The notes under the pieces are model-generated. The model was given only the letters and a program-made list of their open reading frames with translations, ran no database searches and was not told where the DNA came from. This document shows positions 1,931-33,307 of a DNA stretch of 48,235 bases, piece by piece. Position 1 is the first letter of the stretch, and each line of letters opens with the position of its first letter. This DNA is from Komagataeibacter europaeus LMG 18890 (GTDB lineage: Bacteria; Pseudomonadota; Alphaproteobacteria; Acetobacterales; Acetobacteraceae): the NCBI RefSeq assembly GCF_000285295.1, contig NZ_CADP01000001.1, positions 263,398-311,632 on the forward strand. The letters are read 5' to 3'. The translations under genes and the position numbers were made by a program.

Positions 1931-3560
1931 GGGTCAGTTCTTTTTTAAGTGTATCGGCAACACGCAAGGCAAGTGCTGCGACCGTCAGGGTGATGTTGCC
2001 GGTTCCGACCGATGAGAAAACGGACGAACTCGCGATGAACAGGTTTTCGTGGTCGTGTGTGCGACAGAAGCCGTCAACCACGGAATCCTTGGGGTCGGTG
2101 CCCATGATGGTACTGCCGGCGGGATGATCCTGCGGGAAGTAACCCGGTGTCCACTGTTCATCCGTGCCATGCATGAGACCGATCAGGTCCTTGAACAGGC
2201 CACGGGTATGTTCGCAGCTTTTCACCGTATATTCAGGCAGCTTGTAATAGACTTCCGGGTGGGGAATGCCCAGCGCGTCCTTGTATGTGGCACTCAGGGT
2301 CAGCCGGTTGTCGGGATCGGCCAGCCCTTCGTTATGGCTGAACAGCCGCACGGTATGGGAAGCAAGATAGCGGATCTGCTCCTCCAGTTCCCTGCCGACA
2401 TACCCCTTGGAAATGGCAAGCGCGGTTGCAAGGTCCACCTGGTTGTCATCAACCATATGCACCAGGTACGCGCCGCGTTCATTGCGCCAGTTCCCATCAC
2501 GGAAATTGTCGATCACGTTGGTTTCAAGCGGGCCACGGCCGGGCCACAGCGCCTTGTCACCACTGATGAACGTGACCTGCACGCCGGTATGGTCCATCAT
2601 GTTGCGACCGACATGGCCGGAACTGTTGGCGATGCCGTCGGGGCTCTGTTCATCGGCCGAGTACAGCATGAGCTTCGCGGTTTCGATGCAGTGCGCCGCA
2701 ATGACGAAATACTTGCCGGTCACACGGTGCGATCCCTTCTCGGGATCGTAATAATGCACGGCGGTGACACGCTTGTTCGCGCTGTCACGTTCAATCCGGT
2801 ACACCACCGCGTTGGGGACGAACTTCGCACCCGCCGCCTCGGCATGATAGACGGAATAGCTGCCGTTATACATCGCCCCGATGGGGCAGATCGGCATGCA
2901 GTTGTTATGTCCCTCGCAGGTCGGGCGGTTGTCATAGGGCCGCGTGTTGCGGGCCTGCGGTTCATGCACGACGCGATACGGGGTCTTTTCACGGATCAGG
3001 TTGCGAAACTGCTCCGCGGCATAGGAAATGGGCAGCGCATCCATCGGATAGGGCTGCCTGCGTGGCGAACCGAGGTCTTCCACCGCCGGGTCCGGGCCAC
3101 AGACGCCCATCATGACCTCGGCCTGGTAATAGAACGGTTCGAGATCGTCATATTTCAGCGCCCAGTCACGGCCCTGTCCATAACGGGTCTTCAGTTCAAA
3201 GTCCGACGGCAGGTAACGCCATGCGCACCCGGCCCAGTGCCATGTCGTGCCACCCATCATGCGCAGGTAGACCTGCTGGTAGGCTTCGGCATCCGGCCCG
3301 GTCGTGTGCAGGTACTTGTTGGGCGTTATCTGGTTGGGCGGATGTTCGGCCCAGGGCACGCAGGGAAAGGGCCCCTGATAGGAGGGCTTGTTTTCCAGGT
3401 TGCGGAAATTATCGACAAAATGCTGGCGGTCGACACGGGGGCCGGCTTCCAGCACGATGACGGAAATACCCGCGCGCGCCAGTTCATTGGCAATGGAACT
3501 GCCAGCGACGCCGGATCCGACGATCACGACGTCTGCGGAAAGGTCTTGTTCGGAAGGCAT
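1923..3560 (-). CDS. Membrane-bound dehydrogenase, GMC-type flavoprotein (large) subunit
   Basis: This is the catalytic FAD subunit, 545 residues. The Rossmann dinucleotide motif GSGVAGSSIANELARAG starts near residue 16 and ends in an acidic VLEAG turn. A Cys cluster (CEGHNNCMPIC, near residues 214-224) resembles the 3Fe-4S ligand region of FAD glucose dehydrogenase and its relatives. The GMC C-terminal domain, with STIMGTDP and a final GTGNITLT block, is present. There is no signal peptide, as expected if it is exported with the Tat-bearing small subunit. An SD-like GGAG lies 8 bases before the ATG. The 545-residue length is nearer FAD-sorbitol dehydrogenase than the usual ~590-residue gluconate enzymes, but I would not fix the substrate on that. 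Confidence 0.9.
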   Translation of the reverse strand: MPSEQDLSADVVIVGSGVAGSSIANELARAGISVIVLEAGPRVDRQHFVDNFRNLENKPSYQGPFPCVPWAEHPPNQITPNKYLHTTGPDAEAYQQVYLRMMGGTTWHWAGCAWRYLPSDFELKTRYGQGRDWALKYDDLEPFYYQAEVMMGVCGPDPAVEDLGSPRRQPYPMDALPISYAAEQFRNLIREKTPYRVVHEPQARNTRPYDNRPTCEGHNNCMPICPIGAMYNGSYSVYHAEAAGAKFVPNAVVYRIERDSANKRVTAVHYYDPEKGSHRVTGKYFVIAAHCIETAKLMLYSADEQSPDGIANSSGHVGRNMMDHTGVQVTFISGDKALWPGRGPLETNVIDNFRDGNWRNERGAYLVHMVDDNQVDLATALAISKGYVGRELEEQIRYLASHTVRLFSHNEGLADPDNRLTLSATYKDALGIPHPEVYYKLPEYTVKSCEHTRGLFKDLIGLMHGTDEQWTPGYFPQDHPAGSTIMGTDPKDSVVDGFCRTHDHENLFIASSSVFSSVGTGNITLTVAALALRVADTLKKELTHA

Positions 3561-3577
3561 GGGGGATGCTCCGGATA

Positions 3578-4201
3578 TCAGGTGGGTTCTACAACGAATT
3601 TCGAAGGCGAAAGGGCAGGCTCGCCAGTTGGAACGGCCACTTCCGGTGGGGTCTGGGTCCAGTAGAACGGCCCGCCCGCAGCATAGGTCTTGGGATAGAT
3701 GGCATCCTTGGTGATGTCGAACATCAGCGCGGATCGGTACACAACCACCTTTTCATCGGCGACACCACGGTACCATGCCGTCATGATGTCATGAATGACA
3801 TCCTTGAACGCGACATCGCTGTGTTCCGCGGCCCTGGCCAGTTCGCGGGCGCTGTCGAATTTACCGCCCGCCATCAGGTCATGCAGCTTCTGCATCTGGT
3901 CACGGCGTTCGGGCGTTGCCTTAATGATGCGGGCGTACAGCGCGCTGCTGATACGTTCATCCAGCACGTCACGGTCGGTCAGACGGCGCGAGAGCGCAAG
4001 GAACAGCGGCGCGACTTCATCCTGCGCCCCTGCATCAGGGGTGGCGGCAATGCCCCGGCCCGCGCCAAGCACCACGGCGGCGGCCCCCATCGCACCCAGC
4101 AGCACATCGCGACGCGACATGCGCAATGCGCGGTTCATCCGTATGGCATTGGGGGTGGACAGGTGGATACTGGTGGGAAAACTGGGCTGGTCTGCAGCCA
4201 T
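3578..4201 (-). CDS. Membrane-bound dehydrogenase, small (gamma) subunit with Tat signal
   Basis: This 207-residue protein belongs to the gluconate 2-dehydrogenase subunit 3 family. It carries the twin-arginine signal that exports the folded flavin subunit. The Tat motif SRRDVLLG is followed by a hydrophobic Ala/Gly-rich segment ending ...GIAATPD. I place the start at 4201, where AGAGG lies 9 bases upstream; a longer reading frame runs back to 4300 without a ribosome site. Conserved features include the YARIIKATPERRDQM helix and the C-terminal PFYWTQTPP. It is the first gene of the operon, 17 bases ahead of the flavin subunit. Its leader is unusually long before the RR, about 30 residues. Confidence 0.85.
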   Translation of the reverse strand: MAADQPSFPTSIHLSTPNAIRMNRALRMSRRDVLLGAMGAAAVVLGAGRGIAATPDAGAQDEVAPLFLALSRRLTDRDVLDERISSALYARIIKATPERRDQMQKLHDLMAGGKFDSARELARAAEHSDVAFKDVIHDIMTAWYRGVADEKVVVYRSALMFDITKDAIYPKTYAAGGPFYWTQTPPEVAVPTGEPALSPSKFVVEPT

Positions 4202-4812
4202 CTGGCGTCGCCTCTCATGCATGTTGGTCCAGCAGGAATGCCGGAAAACAGGCATGACCGTGCGGGATGCAATAATGCCATCACCGATACCGCCACTCAC
4301 GCCGGGTCTGCAACCTTTTATACTCCCATATTAACGTATAGCAGATTCACGTTCAGCGAGTAAAAGCGGCGAAACCGCTATACAGACATGTTTTGTAAAG
4401 ACATCTGCCCCCGTTAAATACGTCACGCACTGCAAAGTCGATCACATATCATTTATGCCATCCCACGCAGGATGCCACCGGGGCGGGAACAATACCGGGC
4501 AGCACATGACAAACATGCACATGCCGTGCATAATTACTTTCCCATGACAAGAGAACTGCATTCCCGCAATACGCATTTCCATGTATTGCCGTGCCGGTAT
4601 CATTTATTCATTCAGGAACCGGAAATACGCGAAGCCTTGCAGGCAACCGGAATCCATCTGCCGGAACAATACTCCCCTACCCTGATACTGGCGACGCGGA
4701 AATTCCCGACCGGATACCCAGATGGGCCCCGGCCCGGTGGCATTGCAAATCCCATTGCACCGCGCGTGATCTTCCCTGACTGTTGTCCCCGCAACAGGCC
4801 GGAACAGGATTC
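4202..4812. other. Intergenic region between divergent transcription units
   Basis: About 610 bases separate the dehydrogenase operon (minus) from the glycerophosphodiesterase gene (plus). It must hold both promoters. I see one nested inverted repeat (4336-4383) and no RNA gene. A 115-codon frame at 4472-4819 has no recognisable sequence and no ribosome site, and I do not call it a gene. Confidence 0.5.
4336..4383. promoter_or_regulatory. Nested inverted repeat upstream of dehydrogenase operon
   Basis: GTATAGC (4336-4342) and GCTATAC (4377-4383) are exact inverted arms. Inside them AGCGG-CGAAA-CCGCT forms a second hairpin that shares the right arm's bases. The position, about 135 bases upstream of the small-subunit ATG, suits an operator or attenuator. 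No regulator can be named. Confidence 0.3.
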
Positions 4813-5916
4813 ATGCTGACACGCAGACTGATTATGACAGGCGCCCTGTCAGGCATGGCGACCATGACGGCACGCCGGGCTTTCGCCGCCCCCTCACTTG
4901 CCCCCCTGCCCTGCGTCATGGCGCATCGTGGCGCGTCTGCCCTGCGGCCCGAACACACGCTGGCCGCCTATGCCAGGGCGATCGCGGATGGCGCGGATTA
5001 TATCGAACCCGACCTTGTACCCACAAAAGATGGCGTGCTGGTCGCCCGTCATGAAAGCCATATTACCGGCACCACGGATGTCGCCAGCCGCCCGGAATTC
5101 GCCACGCGCCGCCGCACGCAGACCATTGACGGCGCAAGCGAAACCGGATGGTTCACCACGGATTTCACGCTGGCCGAACTCAAGACCCTGCGTGCGCGCG
5201 AACGCCTGCCCGACATACGCGCGGCCAACACGCGTTATGACGGGCATTTTGACATTCCGACCTTCGAGGAAATCATCGATTTCGTTGCCGCCGAAGCCGC
5301 AACCCGCGGGCGCATGATCGGCCTGATCCCGGAAATCAAGAACGCCACGCATTTCCACCAGCTTGGCTTTGCACCGGAAGAGACGTTCGTGCGCACCATC
5401 GCAGCGCACGAATACACCCGCTACTGCCCGCTGGAGGTCCAGTCCTTTGAAATCAGCCCCCTGCGCCTGCTGCACGGCCGGGTGCAGGCCATCAACACAC
5501 AGGCGCGCCTGATGCTGCTGATGGGCGAACGCACGGAACATGTTCCCGACACGGCGGGCACCGCCACACCGCTCACCTTTGGTGATCTCATGACGGCTGA
5601 GGGCCTGCGCCACGTGCGGGATTATGCGGACGTGATCGGCCCGTCCAATGCGGACATCATACCGCGTGACGCAACCGGCGCATGGCTTGCGCCGACATCG
5701 CTGATCGATGATGCGCACCGTGCCGGCCTGCTGGTGCATTCCTATACCTTCCGGCCCGAAAACCACTTCCTGCCCGTCCACCTGCGCAATGGCGCGGGGG
5801 ACAATGCGCGCAACCCGCAGGGATCAATCGCGGAAATCCGGCATTATCTGGATATGGGGCTGGATGGCTTCTTTACCGATGATCCCGCCATCGGCCGCCT
5901 TGCCCTGCGCGGCTAG
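4813..5916 (+). CDS. glpQ: Periplasmic glycerophosphodiester phosphodiesterase
   Basis: This 367-residue enzyme should hydrolyse glycerophosphodiesters from phospholipid head groups to glycerol-3-phosphate and an alcohol in the periplasm. The catalytic HRG is seen in VMAHRGASALRPEHTLAAY near residue 38. The metal-binding E-x-D in DYIEPDLVPTKDGVLVARHE follows, and the second catalytic His is in that block. The rest follows the GlpQ TIM-barrel pattern (IPEIKN, FTDDP near the C-terminus). A twin-arginine-like leader (TRRLIMTG, then a hydrophobic stretch to AFA) indicates export. I chose the ATG at 4813 with GGAACAGGA just upstream. The gene stands alone and converges with the FTR1 gene, only 11 bases from it. 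Confidence 0.85.
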   Translation: MLTRRLIMTGALSGMATMTARRAFAAPSLAPLPCVMAHRGASALRPEHTLAAYARAIADGADYIEPDLVPTKDGVLVARHESHITGTTDVASRPEFATRRRTQTIDGASETGWFTTDFTLAELKTLRARERLPDIRAANTRYDGHFDIPTFEEIIDFVAAEAATRGRMIGLIPEIKNATHFHQLGFAPEETFVRTIAAHEYTRYCPLEVQSFEISPLRLLHGRVQAINTQARLMLLMGERTEHVPDTAGTATPLTFGDLMTAEGLRHVRDYADVIGPSNADIIPRDATGAWLAPTSLIDDAHRAGLLVHSYTFRPENHFLPVHLRNGAGDNARNPQGSIAEIRHYLDMGLDGFFTDDPAIGRLALRG

Positions 5917-5927
5917 GCGGCGCCCCA

Positions 5928-6746
5928 TCAGGCACGGGCGGCAGGCCGCCTGCGCACAAGGCGGGTCGCGATGATCATGGTCGCCAGCGTCACCGCCCAT
6001 GTGATGACCTGCACCCCCATGGGCCGGTCGGAATAGCCCAGCAGCGCCTTGGCCGCACGCCCCACCATGCTGCCATCGGACAGCAGCCACGATGTATCCC
6101 ATACCTCATAGCCAAGGGCGGGGATCAGGTCGTCCCCCGCCAGCAGGCCCGCCGCCTGGCTGGCCATGCCCGCCGCCAGAAAGGCGATCAGCAGTCCCGT
6201 CACGCTGAACAGGCGGCTGAGCGGAATGACGATCAGCCCCCGGTACAGCAGCCACGACAGCGCCGCCCCCGCCGCAATGCCCAGCGCGCCCCCCGTCAGC
6301 ATGGCCGCTGGTCCGGAATGGGTCGAGACCGCGATGCCATACAGGAACAGCACGACCTCCACCCCTTCGCGCAGCACCGCCACGGCGACGACGACGGACA
6401 TGGCGGCCAGCGAGCGTTCACCGGATACGACCTCCGCCCCCAGCGTCTTCATCTCACCCGCCATTTCGCGCCCGTGACGGGTCATCCACACCGTATGCCA
6501 GCCCAGCATCAGCACCGCGATGCACAGGATCGTGGCAGAAAATACGTCCTGCCCGTTGCCCGACAGGGCCGCGGACAGGCTGCCCGCGAATACGGCCACG
6601 ATCGCAGCCCCCGCAACACCCGCCGCAATGCCACCGGCAACCCAGCGCCCGCGCCCCGGAATGCCCTGTGTCGCCGCCAGCACGATCCCGACAATCAGAC
6701 CCGCTTCCATGACCTCACGAAAGACGATCAGCAGACTTCCCAGCAT
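5928..6746 (-). CDS. FTR1-family iron permease
   Basis: This 272-residue integral membrane protein belongs to the FTR1/EfeU iron permease family. Two REXXE iron-binding motifs are visible: REVME at residues 10-14 and REGVE near residue 125, each within a hydrophobic helix. About seven membrane segments can be traced, ending in an RLVRRRPAARA tail. It starts two bases after the cupredoxin gene ends, with AGGAG inside that gene's 3' end, so the two are one operon. Such cupredoxin-permease pairs resemble the FtrB-FtrC part of ferrous uptake systems, in which a periplasmic copper protein helps oxidise or deliver iron. No FtrA or FtrD partner lies nearby. Confidence 0.88.
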   Translation of the reverse strand: MLGSLLIVFREVMEAGLIVGIVLAATQGIPGRGRWVAGGIAAGVAGAAIVAVFAGSLSAALSGNGQDVFSATILCIAVLMLGWHTVWMTRHGREMAGEMKTLGAEVVSGERSLAAMSVVVAVAVLREGVEVVLFLYGIAVSTHSGPAAMLTGGALGIAAGAALSWLLYRGLIVIPLSRLFSVTGLLIAFLAAGMASQAAGLLAGDDLIPALGYEVWDTSWLLSDGSMVGRAAKALLGYSDRPMGVQVITWAVTLATMIIATRLVRRRPAARA

Positions 6747-18705: not shown

Positions 18706-20394
18706 TTATTTACTGAACAGGGATCCGATGCGATCCCATACATACTTCGCCATTACTTCATGCCCGGCCTGATTGGGATGCGTCGTATCGGGATCCCATG
18801 TTTCATGGTCAAGCACGTTGGCAAGGGGCTGCCCGGCGGCAAAGGGATCGATGGTGATGTCGGCACCGATGGTACCCTTCGCGATCGCATCATGAACGGC
18901 GGCACGGGGGGAGCCGCCGGTCTGGGCCTCGTCAATGATGGCGACGGTATAACCCGCCGCCTTCAGGCGACTGACAATCTGCTTCAGGTTACCCACCGTG
19001 TCGGCAGCAGGGATATGGTAGGCGGGCAGGTGGTCATTATAGCCGCCAAAGACAACGGCCACCTTGCGCGCGGCGCCACGAGCCACGGTCTCGGCAGCGG
19101 GCAGCATGTCGAGCATCTGCCGCGTCGTAGCCCCCGACACCGCGAAATCATAACTCTGGTAACGCGCGAAGCGCTGCATGAGGTACGGCCAGTTCCGGCC
19201 ATCATGCACCCGGAATCCCTCGGTCCGGCTGTCACCGATGGCGACAAAGACATCACGCAACTGCGGCATGTAGTCCCCTGCCACCGCAGCAGACGCGGCA
19301 AAGTCCTGCGTCTGCGCTGTCGTCGGGGCGTGGTCGGCTATGACAATACCGGTCCACTGCCCGGTATTGCGCCCCTGCACGAACCATGGCCCGCCATCTG
19401 CATTATAGCCGATATACCCGCCCGACAGCGTGCCACCGGGCAACATGCCCGGCAGGGTGACATGCGCATTGCCCGCCTGCAGCGTGTAGCCACCGGGTCC
19501 CGCCGCCACGCCAGTCGCCGCGGGCGAACTGGTAATGACCAGGTCGGTACGCAGGTCGGGGCTGCGCGTGTCGGCAACATGGACAAACCCGTCAAGGGTA
19601 TAGCTGCCCATGAAGGCCTTGAATTCCCGCCCGCTGCCCGCCTGCCCCAGCAGGACCGGCATGGGAACGGCCGCATTGCCCGAATTGGACGAGGCATAGG
19701 TGCCGGTGGTCCCGAAGAAGAAGCCATCGGCCGCGACCTTCAGCCCCTCCGGCAGCACGAAGCCGCCAGCACCGTTTTCCTCACCCCATGACAGGGTATC
19801 GATCCCCCCGACCCTGACCGCGCCGATATGGACGACATGATGGTCCGGCGTTGCCGTAATGTGGTTGCCATGGCCGGACTGGTCATACACCCGCACCACA
19901 TTTGCGAACGTACCGGGATCGCGGGCGGACAGCGCGCGTTGCAGGGCCACGGTATCCAGTCGGCCATCGCCACCAATGGCCAGCGTGGTGGTGACCATCT
20001 GGCCAGCCGACACCGTCTCGATATCAAGGGCAGGGCCGGCATAGCCACTGACCAGCCGCATCGGGCCGCCGGCAAAGACGGTGTGGGAACCGAATGCGTC
20101 ACCCGGCAGGCGGACCGCGACATTTTCCCACCGGGCATCACCGGGCGCCACCGACACCGCGCGCCATACCCGGCCCGATGCCTGCCACAGGTCACCTGCG
20201 CCATAACCCCGGCGGCTGTCGTCATCACGCCGGGGTGCGCGGTCCAGCCCCCCGCCCGCATGGTCGGGTGCGGGGATGCACACCGTATCCCCCCCCGCCA
20301 GCCCGCATCCCGCCGCCTGCGCCTGCGCCTGCGCCAGAAGCGATGGCGCGGTCATGGCCGCAAGGAAGACTGCCACCTGTCTGTGCGTTTTCAT
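18706..20394 (-). CDS. ORF569-type exported SGNH hydrolase of cellulose operon II
   Basis: This 562-residue protein corresponds in place and size to ORF569 at the end of type II cellulose operons of Komagataeibacter. It has a Sec signal peptide ending AQAQAQAAG. The first half, with VRVYDQSGHGNHITATPDHH near residue 165, resembles the concanavalin-like domain of AbfB-type arabinofuranosidases. The C-terminal half is an SGNH hydrolase: block I IGDSRTEGF near residue 390, block III VVFGGYNDH, and the catalytic DTTHPNQAGH near residue 542. It may add or remove acyl groups on a secreted polysaccharide. The start at 20394 keeps the signal peptide at the N-terminus. It lies 63 bases after bcsC2 and is intact. 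Confidence 0.8.
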   Translation of the reverse strand: MKTHRQVAVFLAAMTAPSLLAQAQAQAAGCGLAGGDTVCIPAPDHAGGGLDRAPRRDDDSRRGYGAGDLWQASGRVWRAVSVAPGDARWENVAVRLPGDAFGSHTVFAGGPMRLVSGYAGPALDIETVSAGQMVTTTLAIGGDGRLDTVALQRALSARDPGTFANVVRVYDQSGHGNHITATPDHHVVHIGAVRVGGIDTLSWGEENGAGGFVLPEGLKVAADGFFFGTTGTYASSNSGNAAVPMPVLLGQAGSGREFKAFMGSYTLDGFVHVADTRSPDLRTDLVITSSPAATGVAAGPGGYTLQAGNAHVTLPGMLPGGTLSGGYIGYNADGGPWFVQGRNTGQWTGIVIADHAPTTAQTQDFAASAAVAGDYMPQLRDVFVAIGDSRTEGFRVHDGRNWPYLMQRFARYQSYDFAVSGATTRQMLDMLPAAETVARGAARKVAVVFGGYNDHLPAYHIPAADTVGNLKQIVSRLKAAGYTVAIIDEAQTGGSPRAAVHDAIAKGTIGADITIDPFAAGQPLANVLDHETWDPDTTHPNQAGHEVMAKYVWDRIGSLFSK

Positions 20395-20457
20395 GTCATG
20401 CTGTTCCCGAAAGGTGATGGGACCGTGCTGGCGTCCCGGCATTGAAGGATCATGGCG

Positions 20458-23400
20458 TTACTGGCCGTCAAGGGTATAGTGCGCCATCCACATGCCGCTG
20501 GTCTCCGACCAGCTGCCCGCACGGCTGTAACCACCTTCCAGCCCCACACGCAGCCGGTGGTCCACCTGGTAGACAAGCCGCCCGCGCACGTTGCCCGCAA
20601 GGCCGCTTGCGCTCTCGTCGCCATAATAGCTGGGCGGGTTCTCATCGCCCTTTGCCTGCAACACATTGCTGGTCGGGAAATATGGCTCGCCATTACTGCG
20701 ATAATACTGGTATCCCGCTTCCCCACGCAGGAACCATGTCCAGCGCCTGTCATGTCCCGACCATTCGACCGGCACCATGGCACCGTAATACTGCCGGGGC
20801 GAGAAGTATCCGCCCTGCCCCCATGTAAAGAAGTAGGCATTGCGCTTGTACCCGAAATACATAAGGTCAAGGCCGACACGCAGCCACTGCCGGTCATGGA
20901 ACTGCCATACGGTGGCGCTGCCGCCCGCACCGGCCTCGGTCTCGGTATTGCCGATGACGTTGGTCCCGCTGAGATAGGCGAAACCGCCACCCGCATATGC
21001 ATTCCACCCCGGCGCGGACCATTCCAGCGCGCCATGGCCGAACAGGCGCGTCACCCCGCCCCACAGCTTGCCCGTGCCCGGGTCGCGTTCACCCGCATAG
21101 GACAGTTCGCTGTCCGTCACCATGCGTCGCCCGCCACTTATGCGCAGGCCAAGGTTACGGGTCAGGCGTGGCGCGAATTCCAGCCCGCCCACCACATTGG
21201 TGATGGGGAAGCCCAGCGGGGAAGACCCTACATCGGCCGAGAACCAGTGGTTGACGTAATTCAGGCTCAGCCCCACGCCCTGCGTGTAGTAATGGTGATA
21301 GCCCCACGGTTGCGCGCCATTGACCGCGACCGTCCCGAACTGGTGGGCGGAATAGGCGTTATCCAGCGGGTCCCCCGTAAACAGCAGCGTTGGCGTCACG
21401 GAAAAGGACAGCCGGTGTTCCCACGATTCAAACGGCAGGGTGGCGGTGATGGGAATGGCGAATTCCGTCAGTTGTCCCAGGCCCGCAATCCCCGTTCGGC
21501 TGCGCACGAAGGTGTTGGCGTCGAACTGCGGCGAAATGGAATCCCGCAGGTAGACGATCTGCCGGTCCATCGCCTCGGGGCTGTCATCCTCGGGGATGTA
21601 ATGGTAGCTCGCGGGCAGGGTCGCGCCATGCAGGTCGAGGTATTCGCTGTCGATATAGGGCCAGCGGTAATCGGGCAGGAAGCTTTCATGCCCGCCACAT
21701 TCGCCTTCCCCGTCAAGACTGCACTGGGTATGCCGGGCATGTTCCACATCCACCAGCTGCGCGCGTGAATTGCCCTCGATACGTTCGATGTCGGATCGCA
21801 CTTCCCAGCTCATCGGGCCATCGGGATCTTCCTGGGCCAGCCGTGTGGCATAGCCCTTCGCCTGCGCCAGATGGTGGGCGCCACCGGCGTCACGCGCGGC
21901 GGCGGCCAGCGCATAGATGTTGGTGGGCTTCAGCCGTAGCGCGATCTCGTCCTCCTCCAGCGCGCGCGCGGCCATGTTCCGGGTCTGGTACACACGCCCC
22001 ATGGCCAGGTGGGCCTCGGCGGAATCCGGGTGGGCGCGCAGCACGGGGGCAAGCACCTGCGTCGCCTGCGCCGTCTGGCCATAGCGGTCGAAATTGTCGG
22101 CGGTCATGACCGCAAGGCCAATGGCGATCTGGTCACGCGCACGCGTCTGTTCGAACGTGATATCGGCGGGATGGGCCTTTGCCATGGTGTCAAAGGCGTC
22201 GAGGCAACGCGTCGTGTCGAAGGACGAGCGCATGCGCAGGTACATCCCCGCATAAGCCAGCATCTGGGCCGCATGGGGTGGCTGCGTCAGGCTTTCCTCA
22301 CGCGCCAGCGCCTGGCCCGCCTCCTGTGGCGCATGCCGCGTTCACCCGTCGGGTCAGGCCGGTCGGCCAGCGCCACAAGGGCGGCGTTGTCCGCGGCGGG
22401 CGGATGGTTGAGTTCGGCTATGCGCCGGTCAAGGGCAAGCAGTTCGGCCACGCTGTCCATGCCCGGCGTACGGCCGGTCCTGGGCAGGCGGTCCAGCAGC
22501 GCACTGGCGGTAGCCGTGTCATGGCGGCCCATGGCGTAGATGATGCCCGCCTGCAGCGCCTCGGCCGAGGCATTGCGCGGTGCGGTCAGGTCGTCCATCA
22601 GGCTTTGCGCCGCCGCATGGTCACCCGCGTCATCAAGCGCATGCGCCAGCTTGAGCCGCACCCACGGATCATTCGGTTCCAGTGCATGCGCGCGACGCAG
22701 CAGGGCAATGCGACCGTCACTGTCCGTCGCCCGGTCGGCCTGCGCGGACAGCGCGGCAACCGTCAACCGCCGCGCCAGCGCCGGGTTCAGCGGCTCAAGG
22801 CGGGCAATGATCGCATCCAGTTCCGTACCATTACCCGTCTGCACCTCAAGCATGCCGAGATTGAACAGGGCCTCGGCATTGCGCGGCGCACGGCGCACGA
22901 CTTCGCGATACAGCCGTTCGGCCTCGTCCGTGTTTCCCAGCCTGCGCTCGAGCATCGCCTGCAGCGACAGGACAGTCAGCGTATTGCCCGGACGGCCGCC
23001 AAGAGTGGCGAGATCGGTGCGCGCCGCATCGTAATGCCCGGTGTTGATGGCATGCACGATACGTGCCACCAGCGGGTCCATGCCCGTGCCGCCGGCTTCC
23101 AGCGCCTTCAGCGCCGCGCGCCAGTGCGGGGCGGTTTCCGGGTCGGCCTGTATGGCCTGCATGAAATACTGCCGCGCGAGCACCGGTTGCTGGCGGGCCT
23201 GCGCCACCAGCCCCAGCCCGCCCAGCGCATCGGGATCATGAGGGTTGAGCACCACGGCGCGATGGAATGCCGCCGCCGCCGCATCAAGGTTGTGACGCGC
23301 CAGCTGCACGTAACCCTGCTGGTGGAAGTTCGCGGCATCAACGACGTTCTGCGTCTCCTGCGCCTTTTTCAGACGCACGGTGAACTCCGTATCATCAGGG

Positions 23401-24278
23401 TGCAGGGCCAGCCATTCATTATAAAGCGGGATGCTCTGCCCGGTTATCGGTTCCCACAGCAACGCGTCACGCCATGCCGCGACCGCATCATTGCGGATCT
23501 GGGCCGATACGTTGGATTTCGCAAGCATGCGCAGCCCGTTCAGACCTTCCTCCCGCGAGGTGACGCGATAGGTCAGGATCCGGTCAAGGCACAGCCGCGC
23601 ATCTATATCACGCGGGTTACGCGCCACCCATGCCGCAAGCTTGGTGCGGGCTTCCTGATAACCAAGGATGGTCGCCCCCAGCACGCGGTAATATTCCAGC
23701 GCAAGGTCGGGTGGCGGATCACCATTCTTGAAGAGCGCCTTGTACTTGAACATCGCGGGCATCATCTTGCCCGACGCCGCCAGCGCGCGGGCTTCGGCCA
23801 GGGCCTTCGGGTCCACCGGCCCGGCCTGGATCTGCGCCTTCAGGTCGGCCACCAGACCGGGCGCATCGCCCTTGCGCTGCAGGCGTTCCAGCGTGCGCGT
23901 GGCCTGGACGGTGCTGCCTTCGGCCATCTGCAGCCGCCCCTGCAGGAACAGGGCCTCGTTATTGTCCGGTTCAATGGACAGCGCGCGCTGGATCGTCTCA
24001 TGCGCCTTGGGCAGATTATGCTGGCCCAGCCAGTAATACCCCTGGTTGAGCAGCAGTTCGAGCACCGCCGCCGCATGCGCAAGATGCGCGCTGTTCGCCG
24101 TCATGGCGGGCGTAGGTTGCGGGCCGACGGGGGCCTCAGGCTGAGCGGGCGCAATCGTGACCGTATCCGCCGGGGCGGCTACAGGTGCGGCCGGATCGCC
24201 CGCCACCGCCATGCCCTGCGCCGCGGCATGGCCGCCCGACAGGATAAGGCCCGCCATCACGGCGCAGGCCATGCGCAT
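20458..24278 (-). pseudogene. bcsC2: bcsC2, cellulose synthase outer-membrane/TPR subunit, frameshifted
   Basis: BcsC carries the growing cellulose chain through periplasm and outer membrane. The N-terminal part (24278 to about 22,320) has a signal peptide and many TPR repeats, such as YYWLGQHNLPKAHETIQRALSIEP. The C-terminal part (from about 22,320 to 20458) has the last TPRs and the BCSC_C beta-barrel, ending HYTLDGQ. The halves lie in different frames. The first runs out of frame at MRHRRRARRW and stops at 22287; the second is open from a TGA just upstream of TRHAPQEAGQALAREESL. One missing base between about 22,315 and 22,345 explains this. Start 24278 has GAAGG upstream. A sequencing error is the alternative. 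Confidence 0.85.
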
Positions 24279-24402
24279 CCCGCCTTCACGTATGCACGAA
24301 TGCGCCAGCATGTCGCCGCGCACCAGCACCCATGCAGCGGGCGCGCACCGCCACGCCACGCCTTCACGCAGGCTGCGCCCGCGTGGTCGTGTCAGGTCAT
24401 GA

Positions 24403-25563
24403 TTAATGGACACGAGACACATGGGAAATATAGGCGAGGATTGCCGCAAGCAGCAGGCAGCCACCCACCAGCAGGCCCGCGCCACGGTTGCGCGCGGCGA
24501 TGCTGACCCGGTCTTCATAATCAAGGCCGGTCCGCTCGACAAAGACGTAGCTCAGCAGGCTGACCACCATGACCAGCGCCAGCACGCCCGCCATCACGGC
24601 CCCGTGCACCTGGAAGAACAGCAGGTAGTTCGCCACGACAATACCCGGCCAGTGCCACAGGTAGACGGAATACGAAATCACCCCCAGCGGTGAAAGCGGC
24701 ACAAGACACCACTGCCCCATTTTCGTGTCAGGCAGCATGATGATGACCGCAACCGCAATGCACGGGAACACCGTCATGTAGGACGGGCAGGCAAAGCGCA
24801 GCGGATAGAACAGTCCCGATCCCACGATGACCGCAAGGGCTGCGGCATAGACAAGGTTGGCCATGCCACGCGACAACCGCAGGCGGGGCAGCATCCAGAT
24901 CATCGTGCCAAGCGAGAACTGCCACAGCCGGTCGAAAATGTTGTAATAGGCCTGGCTGTCGCCCTTGTACCAGGCATAGGCGCAGTATGCCGCCGACGCG
25001 GTGAAGATGGCCGAAAGCACCAGCCTGCGGTGATGCGTCAGCGGCAGCAGCAGCGCCATGACGAAGATGATGGCGTAAAACTGCATTTCCAGCGACAGCG
25101 ACCATGTATGCAGGAACGGGTAGGCAATGGCCTGCCCCTGAAAATACCCGACATGGCCCGATGCCCAGATATTGGACAGGTACACCAGCGCATACGCGCC
25201 ATTGAGCGCGATATCGGCACGATCACTTTGCAGCACCCACCACAGCATCCCTGCCGAGATCGCCGCGATCATGCACAGCAACGCCGGCAGCAGGCGGTAC
25301 AGCCTGCGGCATACGAAGCGCACCGGCTGGAACGGGTGCTGCATGAGCGCCGAACGCCCCATGAAATAACCCGAAATCACCACGAAAATATCGACGCCGA
25401 TAAACCCGCCCTGCAGCCACCCTGCATGGAACAGCACCACAAGGGCAATGGCCAGCCCCCGCAGGCCGTCAATGTCGCGCCGACGGTTCTTGGGAAAGAA
25501 GTCGTTTTCCAGAATGGTGCGCCAGCGGCTGGGCGCGGGCTGAATGGGGGTAAGTTGCAGCAT
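24403..25563 (-). CDS. bcsY: BcsY, acyltransferase-3 family membrane protein
   Basis: This 386-residue membrane protein is an acyltransferase 3 (OafA/NodX type) and is proposed to acylate cellulose in type II operons. The family start RRRDIDGLRGLAIALVVLFHAGW is at about residues 28-50, with the catalytic-type His in LFHAG. GGFIGVDIFVVISGYFM and the later FLHTWSLSLEMQFY are also hallmark blocks. Around ten membrane helices are evident. I chose the ATG at 25563 with GGAAA upstream; the frame opens 54 bases earlier. It lies 83 bases after bcsX and is intact despite lesions in its neighbours. Confidence 0.9.
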   Translation of the reverse strand: MLQLTPIQPAPSRWRTILENDFFPKNRRRDIDGLRGLAIALVVLFHAGWLQGGFIGVDIFVVISGYFMGRSALMQHPFQPVRFVCRRLYRLLPALLCMIAAISAGMLWWVLQSDRADIALNGAYALVYLSNIWASGHVGYFQGQAIAYPFLHTWSLSLEMQFYAIIFVMALLLPLTHHRRLVLSAIFTASAAYCAYAWYKGDSQAYYNIFDRLWQFSLGTMIWMLPRLRLSRGMANLVYAAALAVIVGSGLFYPLRFACPSYMTVFPCIAVAVIIMLPDTKMGQWCLVPLSPLGVISYSVYLWHWPGIVVANYLLFFQVHGAVMAGVLALVMVVSLLSYVFVERTGLDYEDRVSIAARNRGAGLLVGGCLLLAAILAYISHVSRVH

Positions 25564-25646
25564 CAATATTTTCCATGGCTTGCGCCAGTCTCGGGCAAAG
25601 TGGCGGGCGCCCGGCATCCCGGGTCACCCACCACGTCGGGATGGGC

Positions 25647-26264
25647 TTACTGCGCGGCCGCTGGCGGCGCGTCCTTCAGCTTCTCAAGTTCGGGCAGCGT
25701 CGCCTGCACGATCGCATCGCCCCAGACCTTGTAGCTGTCCGGGGTGGCATGGATGCCGTCAATCGTGTTCACGCTCCCCTGCTTGAGCAGCGCGGTGCCA
25801 TCGACATAAGTACACGGCGCAACCTCACCCTTGAGGAAGGTCGCCATTTCCGTCGCCCGCTGGTCGGTCTTGCCGTAACGCGGGCTGAACTGCCCCCATG
25901 TCGGCCCGACCCAGATGCACGCCGTCTTGCCAATGGCGTAGGTCAGGGTCTTGACCTGCTCGTCCACCCAGTCCTTCGACATCGCATTCTGGCCATACGC
26001 CGCCATCGTGTCGCCCAGGACCACCATGACCACATTGGGGTGCCATTTCTCGATCAGCGAACTGATCGGCGGCGGAGACGCGGGCTTCATGTTGGGATTG
26101 GGCACGACCCAGTCGGCAGCGGTGGACGAGCAAACGCCATAAGTCACGACCTTCGCCCCCTGCTTGGTGAATTCATCGGGCAGCACGGACAGGAGCGAGT
26201 CCTTGAAGGTGACATGACTGTCGCCAATAATCAGCAGGGTCAGGCCTGCAAGAAGGGCATTCAT
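25647..26264 (-). CDS. bcsX: BcsX, SGNH/GDSL-like esterase of cellulose operon II
   Basis: This 205-residue protein is an SGNH-fold hydrolase by motif: GDSH at residues 14-17, VVLGDTMAAYG in the middle, and the catalytic pair in DGIHATPDSY near residue 170. The start is firm, because an in-frame TAG immediately precedes the ATG and GGAGAAAG is the ribosome site. Block I therefore begins at residue 14 and leaves no room for a cleaved signal peptide. The hydrophobic LLAGLTLLII is the first beta strand of the fold. BcsX thus appears cytoplasmic, unlike the exported SGNH protein at the end of the same operon. It lies 133 bases after bcsAB2. Confidence 0.85.
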   Translation of the reverse strand: MNALLAGLTLLIIGDSHVTFKDSLLSVLPDEFTKQGAKVVTYGVCSSTAADWVVPNPNMKPASPPPISSLIEKWHPNVVMVVLGDTMAAYGQNAMSKDWVDEQVKTLTYAIGKTACIWVGPTWGQFSPRYGKTDQRATEMATFLKGEVAPCTYVDGTALLKQGSVNTIDGIHATPDSYKVWGDAIVQATLPELEKLKDAPPAAAQ

Positions 26265-26397: not shown

Positions 26398-29300
26398 TCA
26401 CAAATCCCCCGTCAGGTCGTCATGCTCAACCCGCTTGCGCGACCAGCCCCGCAGCCACGCCCAGACCCCGAGCGCGGCAAGCCCCGCGCCAGCCAGTCCG
26501 GTCAGGTAAAGCACCGTGGGATGACGGCCGAGATACCAGTCAAGGCGCATCCACAGCGGCAGGGAACCTACGGTATAAAGCGGCGCCGTGCGGTAACTGG
26601 TGAACTGGTCGCCATTCTTGAGCACAAGGTCGCCCTGCAGCGAGGGCAGGTCCGTCTTGTCGCGCAGACTGAGCACCATGTCATGGATGCGTTCGGGCGT
26701 ATCCCCCATGAAGGCCACGACCGAGCGATGGCTGTCATAGGGCGACTGCGCGGCCAGCAGCACGCCCGCTTCCACGATCGGGGCGTTCAGGTTGGCCGTC
26801 ACCCCATCCTTCAGCCCCGTATGGTCACGGTCCTGGAACAGGTACCAGATCCCCTGCAGCCCCGTGCGCTGGCCCACCGTAATGTGCTGGTCCTGGATCA
26901 CATAGGGCGAACGGGCCAGCAGCCCGGTTGCGGCACCCAGCTGCGCCGCCGTGCCCAGCACGACAATGTCCCCCTTCGGCGGCGCCTGTTCCACCTCATC
27001 CGCCTTCATGATTTCCACGCCCGCCGCCGGATACCATGTCGATGCGCCAAAGAACCCCATGAGGTCGAGGAACGCGCCGGCCGTGCCCATGTCGGGACGG
27101 GCGGGCAGGACAATGGTGGTTTCCGACAGGTCGGCCATGCGCGAGAACGGGAAGGCCGCTTCGGCAAAGTAGGACAGGTTGGGCAGCCGGGCAAAATGGT
27201 GGCCGCGCCGGAAGTCCAGCGTGGAATCCGAATCCACGCTCATGCGGATATCGCCCGGCGTGCGGCGGCACGCACCACGGTCGATGGGACGGGCGTCAAA
27301 GTTGAACTGCAACTGGTTCTGCCCGAACAGAAGCCATGGCGGCAGCGCCGTGACATGGCCAACCGCCCCTGCATGCTGGTTGACCAGGCGTTCGGACCAT
27401 TTCTGCCACAGGCCCGGCGGCGAGAGCGTATAGCTCTGCAGGTAGTTGTTATTGACGCTGACATCGACGCGCGATGTCTCAAGGTCGACCACGGGGCCGC
27501 CAGGCGCGCGGACCCACATGTTCATGAGGAACGGCCGCCCGCGCCACGTATACAGGTCAGGCGGCAGGTGGAACGGCAGCGTCATGCCCGCGGGCGTGAA
27601 GCCGCCACCCTGCAGGTCAGCCGCGCCCACCAGTTCGCCAAAGCGTACCGGGCGGTCCGTCGGCACGAAGGCTGGCGCATCATAGGGGTGGCGTGTCTCG
27701 AGATTGACATCACTGACCACTTTCGAGGCCACGCCACCCAGCGTATCGGGCGAGAACACCACCGCGCGCGCCGCAACTTCCACTTCCTGCGCGTTACGTC
27801 CCGTCACAACCAGCACCGTGCCCCAGCGGTCATTGGGGTTGGCGATTTCCGCCACCATCGGCCCGGAAGGTCGCGCGCCGTTGGCATCGACAGCCAGGTT
27901 TTCGCCCACTTCCACCGCATTGCCCGAAGCCGGAATGGTGGTGGAGACAGGGAAGGACAGCTGGCGGAAATCGGCAACCTTGCCAAACCACGACGCGATC
28001 AGCCCCGCCGCCTTGAGCGCCGCCTTGTCCCCCGTCGCGGGCAGCACGACAGGCACGCGCAGCGTGGAGCGCAGGTTGGGATCAAAGAAGGGGGCGGGCA
28101 GCCGCGAAAGCTTGCGTTCCGGCGTGATGCGCACCGTTGTCAGCGTAATGCGTGACATGTCGGAGATACGCGCCCACAGGATCTCGTTGAACAGATCGTT
28201 GCAGTCACGCCGGTATTCGCCGGCAAAACGGAAATTGAGCTTGTTGTCGCCCGTGAAATACAGCGGGTCGATATCAAAGGTCAGTGGCCCGAACTGCGGA
28301 TGCTGCGGATCAACCTTGATGGTGCCCACGTACTGTTCGTTCAGCGTGACCGTCACCGCACTCGCCTCGGGCAGCAGCGAGGGCGACAGCGCGCCCGACA
28401 GCGTCAGCTGGGCATGCGTCACCACCCGGTTGGCCGGCACGACCACGTCCAGGCCCTGCAGCGGGGAATACCCGCGCAGTGTCAGTGGCCCGGTCGTGGC
28501 GCCCAGGTTGCGGAACGAGATGGTGCGTGTCACCTCCGTATCACTGATGCGGTCGGCGGCGAGGGGATCGATCGTCGGCGCCTCGTCCGGGACATTGCCG
28601 GTATTGCTGTCCCCGAACGGGGCCTCCGCCGTGACACCGGTCTGGTCCGCGACGGGCGTCATGGCCGGGGGCGCACCCTCCTGCGCCATGGCGGCGGGCA
28701 CCAGGGCCGTAAAGGCGACAAACAGCGCGGCAGATGCGGTAGCGCCATCACGAACGCTACGGGGAACAGGTTTCAGCACGAGGCTTTGTTTCTCCAGTTT
28801 TTCTTCCGTGGCGGGAAGGTCTTCCTCCCCCCCGTCTGGCATGGGGCGCGGCGCCTCGGGCCCGCGCCGCTTCAGCAGGCCGCCAATGCTGCGGAACACC
28901 ATCGCAAGGCTGCGCAGCGGGCGGTCGGGCGCAAAATCCGCCCAGTTCGCCCAGGCGTCATTGCGACCAAAGACCATGTTGACGATCTGTCGCTCATCAT
29001 GCAGGTCGCGCCGGATCCACTGCAGGCGCAGCATGTCCCGCCCCGCCCCTACCGCCCGCGCGGGAACGTTGACATGGATACCATCGCGCGCATTGTCATA
29101 ATGGACCGTAACTTCGGTCCCTTCCATTTCCGCCGTGGTCCATGCCCCCTCTACGGCCAGTCCACCGAGGGAGATGTCGCGTGTATGCGCGTCAAACCTG
29201 CGGCCCCGGGCATCGGTCACCGCAACGGGCAGCCTGACCGTGACGCGTGGCGCGTGGCGTGTCTGCCGCGTTTCCCGCCCCACCGCGATCGACGCCAGCA

Positions 29301-30951
29301 CGATGATCATGCTTATGACCACCCATACCGTGTTCAGCACGAAGGACTGCAATGCCAGCCGGTCATGAAATTGCCAGAAGATGCCGAATATCCCGCGCAC
29401 GAAGGCGACGGACAGCAGCAGGGCAAGAATGACGTTGGGATAGACCGCGTCCCAGTCGAAATAGCTGCGTTCAAGCAGGCCGCCCTTGTCCGTCACGTTG
29501 AACTTGCCCTTGTACGGCTGCAGCAGGGTGACGATGGTGATGCGGATGAGGAACAGTGCGAGCGATGTCTCGTAGATCTCGCTCCAGAAGGAATAGCGCC
29601 ACCGCCCCTCGATCCGCGACAGGGTCACGACCGAATGGAAGATGTGCGGCAGCGCATAGACACTGATGGCCAGTGGTGACGCCGCAATGATGTTCTGCCC
29701 AAGAAACAGGAACGCCAGCGGCGACACCAGGAACGTCACCCGTGGTATGGCAAACAGGAAATGCGACATGGCCGACAGGTAGCAAAGCCGCTGTTCCCAC
29801 CGCAGGCCGCCGCCCAGCATGGGATTGTCCACCCGCATGATCTGGATCATGCCACGTGCCCAGCGCACGCGCTGACCGATATGCAGGATCAGCCGTTCGG
29901 TGGACAGTCCGGCCGCCAGCGGTTCGCGCAGATAGGCCGTCCCCCATCCCTTACGCTGCATCTTCAGCGCGGTGTGCGCATCCTCCGTCACGGTTTCCGT
30001 GGCGAAACCGCCAATGCCCGTCACGGCCTCGCGCCGGATGACGGCGCAGGAACCGCAGAAGAACGTTGCGTCCCAGAAATCATTGCCATCCTGCACCAGC
30101 CCATAGAACATGTTGCCCTCGGGTGGCACATGCATCCCGCTTTCAAGGTTACGCTGAAACGGGTCGGGAGCGTAGAAATGGTGCGGTGTCTGCAGCAGGG
30201 CGAGGTTGGGATCGGCGATCATCCAGCCGATGGTGCGCTTGAGGAACCCGCGCGTCGGCACGTGATCGCAGTCGAAAATGACGGCGTAGGGGCTGTGCGT
30301 CACTTTCAGCGCGTGGTTGAGGTTGCCGGCCTTGGCATGGTTGTTTTCGGAACGGATGATATAGCCCGCCCCCGCCGCCATCGCGAAATCACGGAACGCC
30401 TTACGCCGCCCGTCATCAAGGATGTAGACATTGAGCTTGTCCTCGGGCCAGTCGAGGTCAAGCGCGCCAAGCACCGTCGAGCGGACAAGGGAGAGTTCCT
30501 CGTTATAGGACGGGACAAACACGTCCACGCTCGGCCATAGCGCCGGATCGTCGGGCAATGGGTGTTCCTTGCGCCGCAAGAGCCACGCCATCTGGAAATA
30601 ACTCAGGCACAGCGTCACCAGGGCATAGGTTTCCGCCGCCAGCAGCAGGATGGCCAGCCCCGTCTACAGCCAGTTGCCGAACTGCACCGTCGTGGTCAGC
30701 CGCCACACGATGTAGCGCAGCGATACCAGCAGGGACAGCATCATGAGGAAAATGGTGATTCCCCGCCCCGGTCGACGGTTGAGTACCAGCAGGACCGTAA
30801 CCGTACCGATGGAGATAAAGCCCTGCATCGCAGGGTCAACCGCCACCGAGCCAACAAAAGCCATGATGGCCACACCCAGCACGACCGGCACCCAGACCGG
30901 AACACGGTCCAGCCCCGTACGTGCCAGCAGCCCGGCAATCCTGCCAGTCAT
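26398..30951 (-). pseudogene. bcsAB2: bcsAB2, fused cellulose synthase catalytic/BcsB protein with in-frame amber codon
   Basis: The full frame is 1,518 codons and would encode a Komagataeibacter-type BcsA-BcsB fusion. BcsA motifs are intact: VDVFVPSYNEE, DCDHVP, FFCGSCAV, TEDAHTALKM, the QRVRWARG signature, and a PilZ c-di-GMP domain with RHAPR and DISLGG. BcsB follows from about residue 780 to the end. Codon 96 is TAG (complement of 30664-30666), after ...VQFGNWL. The sequence beyond, TGLAILLLAAETYA, continues the membrane helix in the same frame. CAG to TAG is the simplest origin. The first possible restart is a GTG at 30618 without a ribosome site, which would remove the first membrane helices. 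The rest shows no other break. Confidence 0.88.
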
Positions 30952-31606
30952 GAATCCTGTCCTGTATGCATCGCCTGCTATGTCACTGCCTTAATACATG
31001 AGAATATCTGGTAATTCGCCGCCCGCAGCCATGTTGTTGTATCAACGGGACTGGTACCTGCATACTTTTTCCCAGAATACGACCAGCCGTTTCCTGAAGG
31101 ACAAATACTCTTCATTTATGATCCAGGAGAGAATCCTGGTGACCCGAATCCCCTATCATGCAATACTGAAACAATGCATTTGCAATGCCGCCAACGCGCT
31201 GCGCTGGCCTTGCACCCGAACAATGCGAACGGTGTTAATTTTGCATTAACCTTCTGTCAAGAGAAAAACCAGAGATCGAAAGTCAGCTTTTCACCTTACC
31301 TATCAGCAGGACGCGCCCGGATCATTGTGCGGGACATGGAAAGATGCATTTATATTTTTGTTTCATAGGTAACACTTATCGATATTTTTGTTTCATTATC
31401 AGTGCTATAGGCAAGGCACCCGTTCCCATCGCGCCCGTCAGGACGCGCCCGGGGCCGCCAGATGCCCCGAAGACAGGAATTTATATGAACACTGTTCATT
31501 GTCATCAACACCAGATATCCACGAATGCCAGCATGAATGCCGACCGGACAGGCCTGATGCGGCCTGTCCATTTTCCCGCATGGAGCGGCATGCAAAAAGA
31601 ATGGTC
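30952..31606. other. AT-richer intergenic region upstream of bcs operon II and the TetR pair
   Basis: This 655-base gap separates the divergent bcsAB2 and first tetR genes, so it should contain both promoters. It is AT-richer than its surroundings, especially 31240-31400, and contains a 15-base direct repeat (31352 and 31382). Short frames here lack ribosome sites and recognisable products. I see no RNA gene. Confidence 0.55.
31352..31396. repeat. Tandem 15-base direct repeat, possible operator
   Basis: ATATTTTTGTTTCAT occurs exactly at 31352-31366 and again at 31382-31396, a period of 30 bases or about three helical turns. This spacing would place two bound regulators on the same DNA face. 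The repeats lie 211 bases before the first TetR gene and about 400 bases upstream of bcsAB2. Confidence 0.5.
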
Positions 31607-32272
31607 ATGAAAACCACCCGGCCCGTCATGCGCAACGGCAACTATCACAAGGGACATGTCGCGGAAGACCTGCTGCGCACGGCCCGGAACCTGCTGGATC
31701 AGGAAACGGCAGAAAGCGTTTCGGTGCGGCGCCTGACGCGCGAAATTGGCGTGACACCCGCCAATTTCTACAACCACTTCAGCAGTATTCACGACCTGCT
31801 GTTGCGGATCGCCGCTGATTCATTCGTGCAATGCACCCGACAGCTACGCTATTTCCAGCGCAATACCGTAACGCGTGCGGATGCGCTGAAGGCTGCGCTG
31901 GTGGAATATGCCAGCTTTGCCCAGCGCCATCCGCAGATATTCCGGATCATGTTCGGCTTCGTGCCCAACGCCATTTCCCACAAGATCTACCATCACGCCG
32001 CGATACAGGCATTCGCGGTATTGCTGGAGATTATCTATGGCCGGGAGATGCTCCACCTTCATGACATTGAAGGCACCCGGAAGCGTGCGCGGATCGGATA
32101 TGGCCTGTGTGCAATGGGTCATGGACTGGCGATGATGCTGTCGGATGGCCGGTTGCCGTTTGGCAGGGAACAGGGTCTGGAACAGCAGCAAATGATCGAG
32201 GATATTGTCGATGCCTTCATTCACAACGAATTGCATGAAGCCCTGACCCGACCGGCAGGGCAGGAAGCATAA
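31607..32272 (+). CDS. TetR-family transcriptional regulator, first of a tandem pair
   Basis: This 221-residue regulator has the TetR N-terminal DNA-binding domain: helix 1 YHKGHVAEDLLRTARNLL, then SVRRLTREIGVTPANFYNHFSSIHDLLLRI. The ligand domain (residues 70-210) is helical and contains the pair HPQIFRIMFGFVP. It is clearly a paralogue of the next gene (NFYNHF vs NFYNHY, HPQIFRIMFG vs HPQLYRLMFG). The start is uncertain, with ATGs at 31601, 31607 and 31628 and no good ribosome site; I use 31607. It may act on the divergent bcs operon, on itself or on the downstream transport genes. Confidence 0.8.
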   Translation: MKTTRPVMRNGNYHKGHVAEDLLRTARNLLDQETAESVSVRRLTREIGVTPANFYNHFSSIHDLLLRIAADSFVQCTRQLRYFQRNTVTRADALKAALVEYASFAQRHPQIFRIMFGFVPNAISHKIYHHAAIQAFAVLLEIIYGREMLHLHDIEGTRKRARIGYGLCAMGHGLAMMLSDGRLPFGREQGLEQQQMIEDIVDAFIHNELHEALTRPAGQEA

Positions 32273-32539: not shown

Positions 32540-33199
32540 ATTTCGAGAGCCTACCATAAAGGAAACGTCGCCGAAGATTTGCGGATCGCCACCGTCAGGA
32601 TACTGAAAACCGAACGGCTGGAAGATCTGTCGGTGCGTCGTCTTGCGCGGGAAGTCAAGGTGGCGCCAGCGAATTTCTATAACCATTACGGCAGCCTGAA
32701 CAATCTCCTGCTGGAAATTGCCGCGGATTATTTCGAGGTTTTCCGGGATCAGGCAGCCCATATCGGTCGCACGTCCGCAAACAGGACGGAAGCGCTGAAG
32801 CGGACTGTTTTCTATTTCGTTGACTTCGCGCGCAGCCATCCGCAGCTCTACCGTCTGATGTTTGGCTATATACCCGATGCCTATACCTATCCCCGGTACC
32901 GTCTGACAGCGGGCGCTGCGTTCGAGGACCTCATGGAACTTATATACGGCTACAAGGTCTTTACCATCAGCGATGATTTCGGCCCCAACGACATGGCGGT
33001 ACTGGGAAGCAAGGTACAGATCGGCTATGGGATGTACGCCATGCTATGCGGCCTGTCGAACCTGTTTGTCGCCAATGACAGCGAGGGACCGTTCGCGAAC
33101 GCCAGCGATCCACGTGAAAGCATCGTCGCGTTCCTGAACGGCATTCTGGATGCCTTTATCAAAGGTGACCTGCCCAAGATCCTTGGGGCGGAACCCTGA
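32540..33199 (+). CDS. TetR-family regulator, second of the pair, with abnormal start
   Basis: About 219 residues, paralogous to the gene just upstream. The HTH is SVRRLAREVKVAPANFYNHYGSLNNLLLEIAADYF, and the ligand domain ends in FIKGDLPKILG. The start is a problem. An in-frame TGA at 32531 precedes SRAYHKGNVAEDLRIA, which is needed for helix 1. The only upstream ATG (32530, with AAGGA in front) is in another frame and stops after nine codons. Options are ATT at 32540 (AAGGA 9 bases before it), TTG at 32579 (which loses half of helix 1), or a one-base insertion in CCCATTT that has broken an ATG start giving MTSHSRAYHKG. I favour the last, as mutation or sequencing error. Confidence 0.7.
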   Translation: MSRAYHKGNVAEDLRIATVRILKTERLEDLSVRRLAREVKVAPANFYNHYGSLNNLLLEIAADYFEVFRDQAAHIGRTSANRTEALKRTVFYFVDFARSHPQLYRLMFGYIPDAYTYPRYRLTAGAAFEDLMELIYGYKVFTISDDFGPNDMAVLGSKVQIGYGMYAMLCGLSNLFVANDSEGPFANASDPRESIVAFLNGILDAFIKGDLPKILGAEP

Positions 33200-33307
33200 A
33201 ACAGTCCGTCTCTTTCCTGTATCCGGGATAGATGATACTTTTCGCGTCCCACACGCATATCATTCCTGTGAAAGTTGGACCGATTGAAGGGGAAGGATCT
33301 GGCTGCC

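Follow-up and report, generated by a model that had tools for sequence, protein, structure and literature searches.

Amber codon 96 in the operon-II cellulose synthase gene of Komagataeibacter europaeus LMG 18890: a probable recent loss of function within a decaying cellulose operon

A cellulose operon occupies the minus strand of the window, the whole 48,235-nucleotide stretch of Komagataeibacter europaeus LMG 18890 DNA analyzed here, which contains no N and comes from a draft assembly of 4225543 bases in 321 contigs. Its gene order is that of bcs operon II, with a fused synthase gene followed by bcsX, the acyltransferase gene bcsY, and the TPR-barrel gene bcsC. The synthase also has the form typical of that operon, a BcsA-BcsB fusion with GT2, PilZ, and BcsB domains. 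The labels I, II, and III given to the operons follow gene order, the papers cited, and general nomenclature. A GDSL/SGNH hydrolase gene adjoins the operon, in a position that fits the operon-II gene called bcsZ in the available text of PMC9318390. The coordinates of these genes and their lesions, together with those of related loci outside the window, are collected in Table 1.

Table 1. Cellulose genes and lesions in the window and at related loci.
Feature	Position	Strand	Remark
bcsAB2, fused cellulose synthase (BcsA with GT2 + PilZ, then BcsB)	26398..30951	-	interrupted at codon 96
amber TAG replacing a conserved Gln codon	30664..30666	-	precedes the catalytic domain
95-codon fragment 5' of the stop, confined to N-terminal membrane segments	30667..30951	-	
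longest open frame after the amber, GTG at codon 112, 1406 aa	26398..30618	-	
bcsX	25647..26264	-	in-frame 54-bp (18-codon) deletion near 26098 vs closest relative
bcsY, acyltransferase (Acyl_transf_3)	24403..25617	-	no disrupting change vs closest relative
bcsC2 (TPR repeats + BCSC_C barrel)	20458..24542	-	split by 31-bp deletion, 22342/22341 junction
GDSL/SGNH hydrolase adjoining operon II	18706..20442	-	no disrupting change vs closest relative
bcsC1 lesions	L117 (G000 C313), about 9080 and 12857		5-nt lesion is loss of a repeat unit
operon-III bcsAB, split in two frames by one extra base	L116 (G000 C282), 1773-6426		
broken operon-II bcsAB in other genomes	L181, L184, L185		DDE-transposase insertion, IS66 insertion, and 2-nt frameshift (2 extra nucleotides), respectively

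Translation of the 1517-codon bcsAB2 frame meets one internal stop before the terminal one. This stop is a TAG at codon 96, the frame being open on both sides, and the amber is confirmed in this assembly. In the N-terminal membrane region of BcsAB2, it follows the second hydropathy peak and precedes the third (peaks being 19-residue means of at least 1.6), and the truncated product therefore lacks any part of the catalytic domain. Residues 38-91 of the 95-residue fragment align weakly to residues 172-225 of the BcsA chain 9b8v_E, and the BcsA stretch that the fragment matches lies just N-terminal of that matched by the part after the stop. Glycos_transf_2, PilZ, and BcsB are all found by Pfam downstream of the stop, where a 586-residue alignment with BcsA is obtained (chain 7lby_A of a solved E. 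coli complex, E=3.8e-190).

The bcsAB2 gene of the closest relative found (genome G010) also measures 4554 nt and shares 93.2% of its nucleotides, and 95.9% of its protein residues, with that of the window. No indel separates the two genes, and their equal length indicates a point substitution; a frameshift in place of a nonsense change is thus rejected, as the preliminary description had argued from the unchanged frame on both sides of the stop. Operon-II-type synthases, taken as those with at least about 75% identity across the query, occur in 13 of 18 other Komagataeibacter genomes, whereas the remaining five lack one, with a 41-residue piece retained in genome G007. Codon 96 is CAG (Gln) in all 13 of these synthases; the same description had expected Gln or another sense codon in other Komagataeibacter strains and had taken CAG to TAG as the simplest route. 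A wider set of 75 loci was drawn from the best 80 of 100 confirmed stretches in one scan of contigs with one genome per species. All 75 match across codon 96, which is CAG in 42 and another sense codon in 33 (Glu or Asp in 29); the 33 loci belong mostly to other families and include two Komagataeibacter loci with GAG (L041 and L043). A stop at this codon occurs in none of the 75 loci and in none of the 13 operon-II copies. Parsimony, with G010 and two further genomes, assigns the replacement of CAG by TAG to the branch leading to the window. Judged from these alignments, the amber appears to be a C-to-T nonsense change in one lineage, and a sense codon in relatives with a stop in this lineage only is the pattern of a nonsense pseudogene.

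The age of the loss can be approached through the constraint on bcsAB2. Its dN/dS against G010 is 0.087, within the 0.022 to 0.182 spanned by the 22 comparisons made, of which three concern partial genes. Nonsynonymous and synonymous changes number 26:63 on the window branch, compared with 105:278 pooled over three other branches (Fisher p=0.79). These three branches differ among themselves, and one of them (G014) has a higher ratio, 53:78, without a stop. Against G010 alone (23:96, p=0.10), the window branch gives a weak hint of relaxation. Because both dN/dS and the branch counts resemble those of constrained genes, an old pseudogene is rejected and the loss of bcsAB2 is taken to be recent. 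The preliminary description had likewise called the event recent in view of the intact domains downstream, and both the domains and the date hold. By these counts, bcsAB2 was constrained for most of the window branch. The unrelaxed dN/dS fits a recent loss, and it would also fit some remaining function.

The amber is not the only lesion in operon II. Relative to G010, bcsC2 has lost 31 bp, which shifts the frame to a stop at 22287-22289, so that the product comprises 751 codons and does not reach the outer-membrane barrel. At the place of this deletion, G010 has two exact copies of a 13-bp repeat 31 bp apart. In nine other genomes, stops in the bcsC2 alignments fall no further than query residue 30, where the sequence overlaps bcsY, and were not scored as lesions. 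The deletion in bcsX, a gene without a Pfam match at 0.001, may also be a lesion, because bcsX is described as the operon's most conserved gene in the printed text available. Uninterrupted synthase and exporter frames, as a working operon would have, are lacking here, bcsAB2 being broken by the amber and bcsC2 by the deletion.

Across the window, 25 of 32 G010 frames found their counterpart by tblastn with neither a stop nor a split of the frame, bcsX being counted among them despite its in-frame deletion. The seven exceptions are bcsAB2 (amber), bcsC2 (frameshift), an MFS transporter frame, and the frames o6, o10, o11, and o21. The stop at 33269 in the MFS transporter frame was rejected as a lesion, lying 6 nt upstream of a window ORF that starts at 33275. 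The other four, which align with the window solely through stops or a split frame and give no Pfam match at 0.001, are probably chance frames and were left out of the gene comparison. Two TetR-type regulator frames stand side by side upstream of operon II (31388-32272 and 32579-33199), and the latter matches its families weakly.

Beyond what the preliminary description covered, bcsC2 is frameshifted and bcs genes of two other operons are also broken, so that the bcs genes of all three operons found in the genome carry lesions. Compared with two relatives, bcsC1 of operon I has gained 2 nt close to its start and lost 5 nt close to its end. Two loci in the genome match the BCSC_C family, and each lies in a frameshifted gene (bcsC1 and bcsC2). 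In operon III, the extra base of bcsAB makes CC of a single C beside a run of A, the shorter form being present in three other genomes; of the lesions described, this one is most open to sequencing error. Assignment of the C282 locus to operon I was rejected, as relatives place operon I on C313 and C282 fits operon III. The accessible text of PMC6528568 marks LMG 18890 as not making cellulose and its bcsCII as disrupted, and a passage of a review gives it a 5-bp deletion in bcsCI, no cellulose, and an origin in a submerged-culture vinegar generator (PMC7347698). As far as these excerpts go, both published lesions agree with those of bcsC1 and bcsC2 here; of the two bcsC1 lesions, the review passage gives the 5-bp deletion but not the 2-nt insertion. 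Since the published lesions possibly derive from the same assembly, they are no independent proof of each base.

Taken together, the observations are very probably explained by a recent loss-of-function amber within the decaying cellulose operon of a submerged-vinegar strain. A C-to-T transition would recently have turned Gln96 of the operon-II synthase into an amber codon, and translation would stop after 95 residues. With this stop lying upstream of the glycosyltransferase, PilZ, and BcsB domains, we propose that operon II would yield no functional synthase, and bcsX, bcsY, and bcsC2 may be subject to a polar effect. The amber would then be one of several hits in the decay of the strain's cellulose genes under submerged vinegar culture, a setting in which a cellulose pellicle may be unneeded or selected against. 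Loss of the BcsAB2 protein, the succession of the lesions, and a relaxation or reversal of selection are what we infer from the gene sequences. The change looks like ordinary gene loss, with no special use of the stop codon.

A sequencing or assembly error at a single base would leave bcsAB2 intact at codon 96. Such an error is conceivable in a draft of 321 contigs when one base is at issue and a single strain of the species is compared, and the extra base in operon-III bcsAB is of a type that draft assemblies can get wrong. However, the amber is a substitution that leaves run lengths unaltered, lesions of 31, 54, 5, and 2 nt, as seen in the cellulose genes, do not belong to that type of error, and the 5-bp lesion in bcsC1 also stands in the review passage, which may draw on the same assembly. 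A false amber would still leave operon II without an intact exporter. A base error is therefore regarded as improbable, while retaining a somewhat better chance than the alternatives that accept the stop. One of these is a restart at GTG 30618 (codon 112) or ATG 30591 (codon 121), giving an N-terminally shortened but working synthase, and four in-frame candidate starts (codons 112, 121, 125, and 132) do lie within about 110 nt of the stop. The product, including the 1406-residue frame that opens at codon 112, would nevertheless be without the first membrane helices and would have the next one cut, in a region common to solved BcsA structures, and no strong ribosome-binding site is seen by eye in the 20 nt upstream of the candidates. 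A working synthase made in this way is highly unlikely.

The preliminary description had offered two outcomes, that operon II makes no synthase or that the codon is suppressed or read through; the former is favored, and the latter finds no support. An intact downstream frame with conserved domains and a low dN/dS would suit an amber that is read through or suppressed, perhaps under regulation, to give some full-length BcsAB2. The suppressor tRNA that had been proposed for a search did not appear, as none of 54 tRNA genes (Rfam matches in the draft genome, typed with ARAGORN) has a CTA anticodon, although a draft may miss one, and suppression by a tRNA is rejected on this ground. The window itself contains no tRNA genes. 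The gene for release factor 1 (prfA) is present in the genome above the curated cut-off, and TAG terminates 4 of the 27 window genes examined. Because no suppressor tRNA was found, release factor 1 is present, and TAG serves as an ordinary terminator in these genes, suppression is unsupported. Two marks of a recoded or suppressed amber are missing, with no amber-decoding tRNA among the 54 genes and no conservation of the stop in the 75 loci or the 13 operon-II copies, and bcsC2 is frameshifted as well. Read-through is thus given very little credence. Equally little is given to a speculative variant, a leaky and reversible off-switch in which low read-through of TAG96 would keep a trace of synthase and hold the gene under selection, and reversion would restore the synthase when a surface pellicle pays, like the bcsB/bcsC revertants that have been reported.

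The preferred reading, a recent loss of function, has counterparts among known cellulose genes. The bcsCI deletion of LMG 18494 and the bcsCI and bcsCII lesions of LMG 18890 are likewise lesions, small or large, of cellulose genes in vinegar isolates listed as cellulose-negative, whereas the bcsAB2 amber and the operon-III frameshift described here are not mentioned in the portions available of those sources (PMC7347698; PMC6528568). In another species, K. xylinus LMG 1515 has also lost its operon-II synthase gene, bcsABII, through an IS66-family insertion rather than a nonsense codon, according to the main text of PMC9318390. In E. coli K-12, bcsQ carries a single-base amber near its 5' end (TTG to TAG), with loss of cellulose and a possibly polar effect; that change, in a different gene and organism, was tested by reversal, while the bcsAB2 amber is known from sequence alone (PMC5944007, in the sections available). 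In agitated culture, a nonsense codon and frameshifts arise in bcsA and a frameshift in bcsC, as the accessible text of PMC13068021 reports. The nonsense codon, TAT to TAA in bcsA of K. intermedius, is again a premature stop in the gene for the catalytic subunit and is enriched in agitated culture; it differs in belonging to a bcsABCD operon and in being polymorphic in one flask of three during laboratory passage (PMC13068021, same text). The bcsAB2 amber was not found in literature searches or in the accessible passages of the papers cited here. The present result adds a synthase gene to the known broken cellulose genes of a strain that is very probably the type strain of K. europaeus, and it brings nothing new on translation. 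Given its broken genes, operon II of LMG 18890 is unsuitable as an intact reference.

Loss of the operon-II synthase recurs in the genus. The gene is broken in 3 of the 13 other genomes that have it, and a contig end truncates it in one of the other 10; counting the window, 4 of 14 synthases are broken, each by a different lesion. These lesions fit repeated, independent loss of cellulose genes in the genus. Published surveys bear on the distribution of the operon as a whole, which PMC9318390 describes in all genomes compared, in a main text that does not mention LMG 18890, and which the accessible text of PMC6528568 records as absent from K. europaeus LMG 18494 and NBRC 3261. Plasmid records gave only one distant match, from Sphingobium. 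In genome G003 (L178, 6074-12200), bcsY is split between two frames and about 2.8 kb separates its end from the start of the bcsC2 match, and operon II looks rearranged there too.
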